Assembly (NCBI GenBank): GCA_902590895.1
Contig: CACIYM010000005.1
Span: 1-52,618, forward strand
DNA: 52,618 nt
Source of the DNA: an uncultured Alphaproteobacteria bacterium
GTDB lineage: Bacteria; Pseudomonadota; Alphaproteobacteria; Methylaequorales; Methylaequoraceae
Direction: 5' to 3'
Shown: positions 34,722-39,628 of the stretch, one piece after another
How the letters are laid out: each line of letters opens with the position of its first letter
How positions within the stretch are numbered: the stretch's first letter is position 1
The notes under the pieces: model-generated
The model's input: only the letters and a program-made list of their open reading frames with translations
What the model was told of the DNA's origin: nothing
Database searches by the model: none
Translations under genes and position numbers: made by a program

Positions 34722-35531
34722 TTACTGACAGTTTTCAATAGATACCATTGATTCTAACAATTCATCTCCGTCGTAATTGGTTTTTACTCCTTTTATGGTT
34801 GAAGCATCAATGAAGTCATATCCAGTACTTACTCTAACATATTTTTCATCAATACACTTTTTATGAGACGGATCAAAAGCTACCCAACCTAAATCGTTAA
34901 TAAAAATTTCTACCCATGCATGAGTGGTATTTTCACCAGAACTGGTTTCCTCTAATAAAAAACCATTTATATATCTAGCTGGAAGGTTGTTAAATCTGGC
35001 AGCACTTATTAATATGTGAGCAAAATCTTGGCATACTCCTTTTTTTTGTTTTAAAGCATCTCTAGAACTTGTAGATGTTGTTGTCGAACCAGTAACGTAA
35101 TTAATAGAGTTTGAGACTGTTAAATTCAATTTGTGAGCAAATTCGATTAAGTTTTTATTATTTTTTTTTGCTTGGTCTGAAATCTTTTCTATTCTTTTAC
35201 AAGGTTTTGTTAAATGTGTTTCTCTTAAAAAACAAAGTGGGTTAACTTTCTCTTTTAACCCCTTTACGACTCCAGATAGATCCTTTGTTTTTAATATCCC
35301 CTTAGAAGTTATTTTGAGTTGTCCACTAAAATTTTTAATAAAAATATTCTGTACTCTGTGTCCTAACCCATCAAAGTGAGATTCAATTATTTTTCCGTTG
35401 CTGGTAGATGTTTCCCAATTTAATATTTCTTGATTATCACAGATTGATGGATAGAGTTTTAGACATTGTATAAGCCTTGGGACTGTTGAACTGTATTTAT
35501 AAGTTGTTGAGTGTGTTATTTTAATTTTCAT
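34722..35531 (-). CDS. Transglutaminase-like cysteine peptidase domain protein
   Basis: KQKKGVCQDFAHILISAARFNNLPARYINGFL; THAWVEIFINDLGWVAFDP. Confidence 0.93.
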   Translation of the reverse strand: MKIKITHSTTYKYSSTVPRLIQCLKLYPSICDNQEILNWETSTSNGKIIESHFDGLGHRVQNIFIKNFSGQLKITSKGILKTKDLSGVVKGLKEKVNPLCFLRETHLTKPCKRIEKISDQAKKNNKNLIEFAHKLNLTVSNSINYVTGSTTTSTSSRDALKQKKGVCQDFAHILISAARFNNLPARYINGFLLEETSSGENTTHAWVEIFINDLGWVAFDPSHKKCIDEKYVRVSTGYDFIDASTIKGVKTNYDGDELLESMVSIENCQ

Positions 35532-36492: not shown

Positions 36493-37899
36493 TTATTCAT
36501 TTAGTACCCATGTATCTTTTACTCCTCCACCTTGAGAAGAATTAACTACCAATGAACCTTGATTTAAAGCCACCCTTGTTAGTCCGCCGTCAACTAATTT
36601 TGTTTTTTTTGCTCCAACTAAGCAAAATGGTCTAAGATCAACGTGTCTTGGAGATAGTTTTTTTTTGTCAAAGATCGGTACTGAGGATAACTCAAGTATT
36701 GGTTGGGCTATATAATTTGCAGGATTTAGAAGAATTTTTTTTCTAAAAATTTCAATTTCTTTTTTTGACGATTTGCTTCCAATTAATAAACCATAACCTC
36801 CAGAGCCGTGAACCTCTTTGACAACTAATTTATTTAAATTGTTAAGAACATATTTTTTTGCATCCTCTTCGCAACATCTCCATGTTTTAACATTATCTAA
36901 TATAGGTTCTTCACCTAAGTAAAATTTAATGATTTCAGGTATGTAAGAATAAATAGCTTTATCGTCAGCAATACCTGATCCAGGCGCAGAGCAAATATTT
37001 ACATTTCCGGATTTATATGAATCAAATAAACCAGGAATTCCAATTAGTGAAGAACTATCAAAAGTGATTGGATCAAGAAATTTATCATCAATTCTTCTAT
37101 AAATAATATCTACTTTCTCTGGGCCTCTAGTCGTTTTCATATATGTTATTGATTCATCAACAAAAAGATCTGTTCCTTGAACTAGCTCAACTCCCATAAG
37201 ATCAGCAAGAAAACTATGCTCGTAATACGCGCTATTTAAAGAGCCAGGTGTCAGAATCACAACTTTTGGTTCTTTATTACATTTTTTTGGAGCTAGACTT
37301 TTTAGAGCATCTAACAAATAACTTGGATAGTTTTCTACTGTTTCAATTTTCAATTTTTCAAATAACTCTGGAAACATTCTCATCATTATTTCTCTATTTT
37401 CAATCATGTATGAAACTCCAGACGGAGTTCGACAATTATCTTCTAGAACTTTAAAAATATTTTCATTTATTCTTACAATATCAGATCCAATTATTGGACT
37501 ATAAATTCTTTTGGGAACCTTAAAGCCAATCATTTTTATTTCATAAGCAGGGTTTTTATAAATTAAATTTTCCGGTATTAATTTTGCTTTTATAATTTCA
37601 CCAGAATTATATATATCGTTAAGAAATGCATTAATAGCTAAAGCCCTTTGAATAACTCCCTTTTTAATTTTTTTCCATTCAATGGAAGAGATTATTCTTG
37701 GAAACATGTCAAATGGAATTAAGCGTTCTGTAGAATCAAAGTTATTGTACACAGAAAATGTAATACCTATTTTTTTAAAAAGATTTTCAGCTTCATTTTT
37801 TTTTTTAACAATTACATTTTCGGGTAAAGACTTAGCCCAATCATATATTTGATTGTAAAATTTTCTTACTTTTGAATTTTTATAAACTTCGTTATACAT
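36493..37899 (-). CDS. Circularly permuted ATP-grasp protein (DUF404/DUF407)
   Basis: RIISSIEWKKIKKGVIQRALAINAFLNDIY; NICSAPGSGIADDKAIYSYIPEIIKFYLGEEPIL; HGSGGYGLLIG. Confidence 0.92.
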   Translation of the reverse strand: MYNEVYKNSKVRKFYNQIYDWAKSLPENVIVKKKNEAENLFKKIGITFSVYNNFDSTERLIPFDMFPRIISSIEWKKIKKGVIQRALAINAFLNDIYNSGEIIKAKLIPENLIYKNPAYEIKMIGFKVPKRIYSPIIGSDIVRINENIFKVLEDNCRTPSGVSYMIENREIMMRMFPELFEKLKIETVENYPSYLLDALKSLAPKKCNKEPKVVILTPGSLNSAYYEHSFLADLMGVELVQGTDLFVDESITYMKTTRGPEKVDIIYRRIDDKFLDPITFDSSSLIGIPGLFDSYKSGNVNICSAPGSGIADDKAIYSYIPEIIKFYLGEEPILDNVKTWRCCEEDAKKYVLNNLNKLVVKEVHGSGGYGLLIGSKSSKKEIEIFRKKILLNPANYIAQPILELSSVPIFDKKKLSPRHVDLRPFCLVGAKKTKLVDGGLTRVALNQGSLVVNSSQGGGVKDTWVLNE

Positions 37900-37933
37900 C
37901 TTTCATTATTACCGAAGCAGAAAGAGACAGAGG

Positions 37934-37984
37934 GATGCGTTCCTTCGGTTTCAAACCTACTTCCGACCAAAAAAGGTTGAACGT
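37934..37984 (-). ncRNA. Glutamine riboswitch aptamer (glnA RNA-type), 5' of the ATP-grasp operon
   Basis: Minus strand ACGTTCAACCTTTTTTGGTCGGAAGTAGGTTTGAAACCGAAGGAACGCATCCC; CGTTC/GAACG P1, GGTTT-GAAACC hairpin, conserved CGGAAGUAGG and GAAGGAACGCA segments. Confidence 0.85.
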
Positions 37985-38124
37985 TTGTTTAAGGTTATAT
38001 CTTATATTTTTTTAAATCAAGAATTAAATTGATTGTAGTAATGAATTTAAAAGTAAAAGTTCCTTTAAAGTATTTATTAATAAATTTTTCTTTTAATAAT
38101 TCATTTGAAGATTAAATAGTAATA

Positions 38125-39141
38125 ATGGCAAATATAAAAGGTTTAAGCTCTGTTTTTCCAAAAAATAAGGTCTTTCAAGAAGAGATCAAAGAAATAGGCA
38201 GAAAATTATTTTCTTCAAAAATTCAATTTAAAAAAATGGAAAAAGTTTATGATAATTCGGGAGTTAAAACTAGGTATCTTACTGAAAAACTAGATTGGTA
38301 TTTAGACGAACATAATTGGTCTGAAAGAAATTTTCTTTTTAAAAAAAATGCACTCAATCTTTTAAAAGAATCAATTAATGAGACCATTGAAAAAACAAAT
38401 ACCAAACCAGAGAAAATAGGTGCAATTGTGTTGGTCAATAGTACAGGTATTTCTACCCCGACTATTGATGCTGAAATTTTTAACCTATTTAATTTTAATA
38501 ACGAAATTGTCAGGTTGCCAATTTTTGGATATGGGTGTGCAGGAGGAGTTTTAGGGCTTAATAGAGCTATTGAGATTTTTAAAAGTTTGAACAAAACTAT
38601 TCTTGTCTGTAATGTTGAGCTTTGTAGTCTGACATTTAGACCTCAAATTTTTAGTAAAGAAAATGTAGTTAGTACGGCTTTATTTGGAGATGGATGCGCG
38701 TCATATTTAATTGAGGAAGAGGGACATTGTCAAATATTAAAATCAACTGAGCACACTTGGAAAAACTCTCTGTCACTAATGGGGTGGGGTGTAGAAGATG
38801 ATGGGTTGTCCGTAATTTTTGATAAAGTTATCCCAGATTTTATTACAAAAAAATTACCAGATGTTTTAAATAAATTTTCTTTTAACAATTTAGACGGTTA
38901 TGTACTTCACTCAGGTGGAATGAAAATTATTCAAGCTTACAGACAAATATTGAATAATGATAAAACCATTTCAGAATCTGAGGCAATACTATCAAAGTTT
39001 GGAAACGTTTCCTCTGTATCTGTATTACTAACATTAAAGGAGATGATAAAAAAAAATTACAACGGAGTATATTTGATGAGTGCTTTAGGACCAGGTTTTA
39101 CTGCAGGTTTATCAGCAATAAAAATGAGTAAAAATGGTTGA
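38125..39141 (+). CDS. Type III polyketide synthase (chalcone/stilbene synthase family)
   Basis: LVNSTGISTPTIDA; Cys motif FGYGCAGGVLGLNRA; ALFGDGCASYL; HSGGMKII. Confidence 0.88.
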   Translation: MANIKGLSSVFPKNKVFQEEIKEIGRKLFSSKIQFKKMEKVYDNSGVKTRYLTEKLDWYLDEHNWSERNFLFKKNALNLLKESINETIEKTNTKPEKIGAIVLVNSTGISTPTIDAEIFNLFNFNNEIVRLPIFGYGCAGGVLGLNRAIEIFKSLNKTILVCNVELCSLTFRPQIFSKENVVSTALFGDGCASYLIEEEGHCQILKSTEHTWKNSLSLMGWGVEDDGLSVIFDKVIPDFITKKLPDVLNKFSFNNLDGYVLHSGGMKIIQAYRQILNNDKTISESEAILSKFGNVSSVSVLLTLKEMIKKNYNGVYLMSALGPGFTAGLSAIKMSKNG

Positions 39142-39628
39142 TACCTACTTAATGATTTATCTTGTTTTAAGTAGATTGTTTGAACTTTTCTTAAGTAAAA
39201 AAAACACGAATAGATTATTGAAAGAAGGTGCCGTTGAGCATTATAGTTTTCATTATAAATTTATCGTTTTATTTCACATCATTTTTATTACTTTTTTTTT
39301 CATAAAATCCTTTTCAAACACTTTTTATAACCTTCAATATCTTTATGTTTTTTCTATAGTTCAAATTTTAAGATACAAAATAATTTATGATCTTGGTAAG
39401 TTTTGGACAACAAGAATTCTGGTTGTAAAAAAACCATTAGTTAAAACATGGTTTTTTCGCCATTTTAGGCATCCAAATTATATGATTGTTTTTTTGGAAG
39501 TAATATTAGTTTGCTTATTTTTTAACGATATCAATTCTTTGATTTTCTTTACCGTTATCAATTCAATTTTACTTGGCATAAGAATCTTCTATGAAGAGAA
39601 AGCGAACAAATTCAGACGTAAATTATAA
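39134..39628 (+). CDS. Isoprenylcysteine carboxyl methyltransferase-like membrane protein (BpsB-like)
   Basis: LSRLFELFLSKKNTNRLLKEGAVE...FRHFRHPNYMIVFLEV; coupled to type III PKS. Confidence 0.82.
   Translation: MVDTYLMIYLVLSRLFELFLSKKNTNRLLKEGAVEHYSFHYKFIVLFHIIFITFFFIKSFSNTFYNLQYLYVFSIVQILRYKIIYDLGKFWTTRILVVKKPLVKTWFFRHFRHPNYMIVFLEVILVCLFFNDINSLIFFTVINSILLGIRIFYEEKANKFRRKL

Follow-up and report, generated by a model that had tools for sequence, protein, structure and literature searches.

Glutamine riboswitches were described in a 2018 review as restricted to cyanobacteria, and their association with glnA, PII and ammonium-transporter genes was known only from environmental DNA (PMC6316151). 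The cyanobacterial representatives that have been tested, the type 1 riboswitch of gifB and a type 2 riboswitch of Prochlorococcus, are ON switches (PMC6316151), and phage-borne copies have been described since that review (PMC9004378). The genes for ATP-grasp, Alpha-E and transglutaminase proteins form, together with the gene for the protease Anbu, the Anbu operon, whose function is not established (PMC5666114, PMC6376114). During growth of Pseudomonas putida on nitrate in comparison with ammonium this operon is induced, with log2 changes of 4.0-4.4 for PP_2688 and PP_2685 (PMC8050072), and its induction under nitrogen limitation in the same species is mentioned in PMC5666114 with reference to Hervas 2008. 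In an ntrC mutant of Burkholderia cenocepacia the operon genes are down 6- to 9-fold and expression is also sigma54-dependent (PMC5491218), while in marine metagenomes the domains of the operon correlate with urea-metabolism domains (PMC3597751). A first-pass annotation of the DNA studied here had placed a glutamine riboswitch before such an operon and regarded the operon as one not usually described as nitrogen-assimilatory, a view that needs revision in light of these published inductions and of the NtrC/sigma54 dependence. The pairing of riboswitch and operon is functionally coherent, since the operon is nitrogen-responsive in both P. putida and B. cenocepacia.

The window, which is the entire analyzed stretch of 52,618 nucleotides, belongs to an uncultured marine alphaproteobacterium. 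A cmscan search with all 4227 Rfam families identified a Glutamine riboswitch (RF01739) at 37985-37934(-) with 59.5 bits (E 1.1e-10; Rfam gathering score 35 bits), and the only other Rfam match in the window is a tRNA. The match covers model positions 1-53 of 53 and is not truncated. It agrees in class and strand, and within one base in position, with the glnA RNA that had been annotated at 37934-37984. The type 2 or Downstream-peptide class (RF01704) was ruled out, as RF01739 alone is returned at this site. The minus strand reads ACGTTCAACC...GGTCGGAAGTAGGTTTGAAACCGAAGGAACGCATC over these positions, and the P1 helix and the hairpin that had been quoted from it are present in the sequence and in the Rfam alignment (Table 1). 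The last base of the aptamer lies 34 nt upstream of the A of the ATG at 37899, close to the roughly 35 nt estimated before, and the covariance-model match includes the CGGAAGUAGG and CCGAAGGAACGCAUC segments of the type 1 class. Comparison of 62 distinct aptamers verified that P2 and P3, the helices for which covariation was counted as P1 was set by the search pattern, do covary. P2 pairs 1-3 are kept in 62/62 aptamers (as A-U or U-A; C-G or U-A; C-G, U-A or A-U) and P3 pairs 1-3 in 60-62 of 61-62 (G-C, A-U or G-U; G-C or A-U; U-A or C-G). Judged by its sequence, the window RNA is a genuine type 1 glutamine riboswitch, which would be expected to bind glutamine.

Pfam matches to all three downstream genes confirmed the annotated operon. 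The genes are adjacent and arranged in the order of the Anbu operon, with the start of the transglutaminase-like gene overlapping the Alpha-E stop; NCBIfam offers no model for these three proteins. On the plus strand, at 38125-39628 and pointing away from the riboswitch, a gene for a chalcone/stilbene synthase-like protein (type III PKS) precedes one for an ICMT-type methyltransferase, and the two may make up a small polyketide cluster.

Table 1. Features of the riboswitch locus, with positions in the window.
Feature	Position	Strand	Basis
Likely sigma70-type promoter (CTTGAT ... TATAAC); would start the transcript just before P1	37994..38021	-	conserved blocks in relatives
Glutamine riboswitch aptamer (RF01739), full length	37934..37985	-	cmscan
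P1 helix: CGUUC 37983-37979 with GAACG 37942-37938	37938..37983	-	sequence; Rfam alignment
P2 hairpin: ACC 37977-37975 with GGU 37968-37966	37966..37977	-	Rfam alignment
P3 hairpin: GGUU with AACC, loop UGA	37947..37957	-	Rfam alignment
Predicted anti-aptamer segment CUGCUUC, pairs with aptamer GAAGUAG 37963-37957	37914..37920	-	duplex -10.5 kcal/mol, p 0.05 vs shuffled spacers
Predicted Shine-Dalgarno-masking hairpin: CUUUC 37924-37920 with GAAAG 37904-37900	37900..37924	-	spacer fold -4.3 kcal/mol
Circularly permuted ATP-grasp protein, 468 aa, operon gene 1	36493..37899	-	PF14403 (CP_ATPgrasp_2) 1e-152, PF04174 1e-133
Alpha-E protein, 319 aa	35528..36487	-	PF04168 1.4e-79
Transglutaminase-like protein, 269 aa, last operon gene	34722..35531	-	PF01841 (Transglut_core) 1.1e-22, PF08379 (Bact_transglu_N) 2.2e-10

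Related genomes were searched for the riboswitch and, separately, for the ATP-grasp protein. The window's genome (1.07 Mb assembly, 71% complete) contains one glutamine riboswitch. The riboswitch is present in 23/32 genomes of its family (f1) and in 0/28 genomes of other families in the same search. The protein search returned the ATP-grasp gene in the same 23 f1 genomes and in genome G191 of a second family (f142), so that gene set and riboswitch set comprise the same 24 of 33 genomes; these are related and incomplete and do not amount to 33 independent tests, and one of the nine negatives (G019) is 93% complete. In all 23 f1 genomes with the gene the aptamer is found directly upstream of it, which bears out the expected conservation before the same operon, and the nine f1 genomes lacking the gene also lack the aptamer. 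The RF01739 aptamer is thus located in the leader of a gene related to nitrogen, being kept before the ATP-grasp gene of an operon that is nitrogen-responsive in published work. Relatives keep the aptamer at this position even when the protein encoded by the next gene is only 70% identical, as is the ATP-grasp protein of a Rhizobiales TMED25 locus (L063) with the same arrangement. Elsewhere the riboswitch is rare: a class-wide sample gave matches in 6/387 genomes, all belonging to f1 or being G191 of f142, and a phylum sample gave a match in 1/399 genomes, namely the window's own.

Among the 27 riboswitch matches in f1, 23 directly precede the ATP-grasp gene, and only one (L002, G014:C1:3262-3312) is located at another chromosomal site, where it precedes an outer-membrane-type gene and amtB and is divergent from glutamate-synthase-like genes. 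Three identical riboswitches of 50 bits (L025, L026 and L027) were found on phage-like contigs of one assembly (G006 contigs C2, C10 and C26); they adjoin long repetitive structural-type genes, precede a short ORF and resemble the phage riboswitches of PMC9004378. At four f1 loci (L033, L034, L037 and L043) glnB-glnA or glnB alone is found past the transglutaminase gene, at a distance of 2-3 kb. The protein tree does not support a single origin of the pairing between riboswitch and operon. Three or more gains or losses of the riboswitch are needed to explain this tree, and with f142 placed far from f1 the pairing probably arose more than once.

In f142, 24/25 genomes carry 2-8 aptamers each, mostly as closely spaced pairs, while the riboswitch was found in 0/16 genomes of family f30, sampled as relatives. 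All 37 f142 loci examined are located upstream of one of three targets, as assigned by NCBIfam: amtB, the ATP-grasp gene or a glnA that is itself directly preceded by glnB. L113 and L115 precede the second amtB copy, as read from L141. The operon thus keeps company with core nitrogen-assimilation genes. As f142 aptamers precede the ATP-grasp operon as well as glnA and amtB, the operon belongs to a glutamine/nitrogen regulon. A weaker glutamine riboswitch (43.8 bits) is located between glnB and glnA at a TMED62 locus (L052), where the ATP-grasp operon begins next to glnB on the opposite strand, divergent from the riboswitch. A AUUUCCAUAGCUAAGCAUGA-like block is conserved after the second aptamer and before ATP-grasp and amtB in G191 (L108-L115, L139-L142) and relatives. 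The GCAUG within this block could form pairs with the linker GCAUGC that separates the two aptamers, and the block is possibly part of a two-aptamer expression platform.

Analysis of upstream regions revealed what appears to be a common sigma70-type promoter in f1 leaders, which consists of CTTGATTT and TATAAY-like boxes and whose end is immediately upstream of P1. CTTG[AC]TTT and TATAAY-like blocks are kept at constant distance in the f1 relatives and in L063; the conserved CTTGAT/TATAAC pair was not among the calls of a generic promoter scan. Sigma54-like sites were detected upstream of 0/20 riboswitch loci in contrast to 5/14 riboswitch-less marine loci, with a shuffled rate of 0.003-0.004, and besides these five L066 also contains one. 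In the protein tree the riboswitch-bearing L063 has L062 and L066 as its closest relatives. The sites of the riboswitch-less loci L048, L050, L053, L054, L062 and L066 are TGGCAT-N5-TTGCA-like and lie at about -43 or at -116 to -119 upstream of ATP-grasp. With sigma70-type promoters in the riboswitch carriers and sigma54-type sites in several riboswitch-less marine relatives, the RNA appears to substitute for NtrC/sigma54. The f1 genomes retain a full-length NtrC-like protein (509-529 bits; curated cut-off 558.6), and NtrC control could therefore coexist with the riboswitch in this family. In G191 the only full-length NtrC-class match scores 181 bits, like the f1 NtrX-type proteins, and these scores suggest that it and its f1 counterparts are NtrX.

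The leaders provide clues to the direction of control. In one subclade (L017, L022 and L047) only 3 nt lie between the end of P1 and the ATG, and the sole Shine-Dalgarno sequence, GAAGGA, is a segment of the aptamer; because of this location the folded aptamer should hide the Shine-Dalgarno. This subclade is the strongest hint at OFF polarity that the sequences offer. Leaders outside it contain a 38-50 nt spacer with a segment complementary to the GUCGGAAGUAGG strand of the aptamer (CUACUCCGAU, CUGCUUC, CUCUUCUGAU and others), and segments matching that of the window were found in most relatives. The complementarity reaches a nominal p of 0.002-0.1 in 13/18 distinct leaders, which are related, so that their p-values are not independent. 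As the aptamer strand is invariant, this pairing shows one-sided changes only. In L044, L045 and L063 an alternative pairing of GUCUCUACC with the P3 strand GGUAAAGAC is seen (p 0.005-0.013). Just before the anti-aptamer segment a pyrimidine tract is predicted to be able to pair with the Shine-Dalgarno. The resulting spacer hairpin beats shuffled sequences at p <0.1 in about half of the leaders; it is not significant in the window (p 0.37), and several relatives have stronger versions (p 0.014-0.06). Competing anti-aptamer and Shine-Dalgarno helices are thus predicted to give a consistent OFF logic, that of a translational OFF switch. Compared with its near-identical sister L028, the window is missing three bases (AAG) immediately upstream of the ATG, at 37899-37910, which gives it a shorter Shine-Dalgarno region.

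We consider it probable that this RNA is a type 1 riboswitch leader exerting glutamine-OFF translational control over a nitrogen-starvation operon, in place of NtrC/sigma54. The riboswitch would be the 5' leader of the ATP-grasp/Alpha-E/transglutaminase mRNA, made from the sigma70-type promoter. When glutamine is high and the cell is nitrogen-replete, the aptamer would fold and translation of the first gene would be turned off, either through the freed pyrimidine tract, which would pair with the Shine-Dalgarno, or through the position of the Shine-Dalgarno inside the aptamer in the L047 subclade. When glutamine is low under nitrogen starvation, the CGGAAGUAGG strand of the aptamer would pair with the downstream spacer, the Shine-Dalgarno would be released and the operon would be made. 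The operon would thereby serve nitrogen starvation, with the riboswitch filling the role that NtrC/sigma54 has in other proteobacteria. Its products most likely form a system for amide ligation and cleavage on peptides or proteins that salvages nitrogen.

An ON switch as in cyanobacteria, in which glutamine would expose the ribosome site and the operon would be made when nitrogen is plentiful, e.g. for storage or recycling, is judged unlikely. It would accord with the tested glutamine riboswitches of both types, which activate on binding (PMC6316151), and with folding models in which binding does not make the ribosome site less accessible in the window and some relatives (window accessibility 0.62 free vs 0.67 bound); for the f142 leaders these models give no separation of the free and bound states. 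It is, however, opposed by the Shine-Dalgarno inside the aptamer of the L047 subclade, by the same RNA preceding glnA and amtB in f142, genes expected to be repressed by glutamine, and by the nitrogen-limitation induction and NtrC dependence of the operon in P. putida and B. cenocepacia. Less likely still is an aptamer that mainly controls transcription, through early termination (Rho-dependent or otherwise), and not translation initiation. Such a mechanism would suit the shortness of the leader and the fact that not every relative has a classic anti-Shine-Dalgarno hairpin as its platform (e.g. L046), but a terminator scan of the window detected no intrinsic terminator on the minus strand, which makes translation the likelier level of control, and in the leaders compared only 3-50 nt separate the aptamer from the start codon, with no U run before the gene. 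That the aptamer is a functionless chance or degenerate look-alike is highly improbable given an E value of 1e-10, helices covarying in 62 distinct aptamers, a conserved position before the same gene and the rarity of the riboswitch in the wider samples, where every match falls in f1 or f142; no evidence in favour of such a look-alike was found. Returning to glutamine-OFF control, we lean towards the broader reading that the f1 and f142 RNAs are switches of this kind for a nitrogen regulon, which comprises the ATP-grasp operon and, in f142, glnA and amtB as well. These RNAs would then be the first OFF-type glutamine riboswitches and a source of the 'environmental' glnA RNAs, with the operon being a core nitrogen-starvation system and an RNA replacing NtrC/sigma54.

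The locus resembles the Anbu operon in containing the same three genes, which are nitrogen-responsive in other proteobacteria. It differs in that no Anbu gene is found in or adjoining the operon; a single proteasome-family match per genome was obtained in the 18 genomes tested, and that of the window's genome reads as HslV and sits on another contig. It also differs in its predicted control by a riboswitch and a sigma70-type promoter instead of NtrC/sigma54. With a dedicated glutamine sensor fixed before it in two families that are far apart, the old and widespread Anbu operon is linked directly to nitrogen status, and the sensor offers an easy means of testing when the operon is active. The paired f142 aptamers before glnA and amtB resemble the tandem glnA RNAs of marine metagenomes (PMC2864571); here, the genomes that carry them belong to one alphaproteobacterial family and the ATP-grasp operon is a further target, whereas f1 has single aptamers. 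No paper combining 'glutamine riboswitch' and 'transglutaminase' was found in a search that did not extend to supplementary tables, where an earlier mention is possible. Within the literature that could be searched, novelty lies in the host group, the operon and the likely polarity, the RNA class itself being known. With type 1 glutamine riboswitches (glnA RNA, RF01739) the window RNA shares the full-length model match with P1, P2 and P3, and the f142 copies share the position before glnA and amtB known from environmental sequences (PMC2864571, PMC6316151). In contrast, the host is an alphaproteobacterial family and not a cyanobacterium, and the target is the ATP-grasp/Alpha-E/transglutaminase operon. 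The glnA- and amtB-type associations are now placed in alphaproteobacterial families, and the polarity predicted for them, OFF, is the opposite of that of the tested cyanobacterial ON switches.
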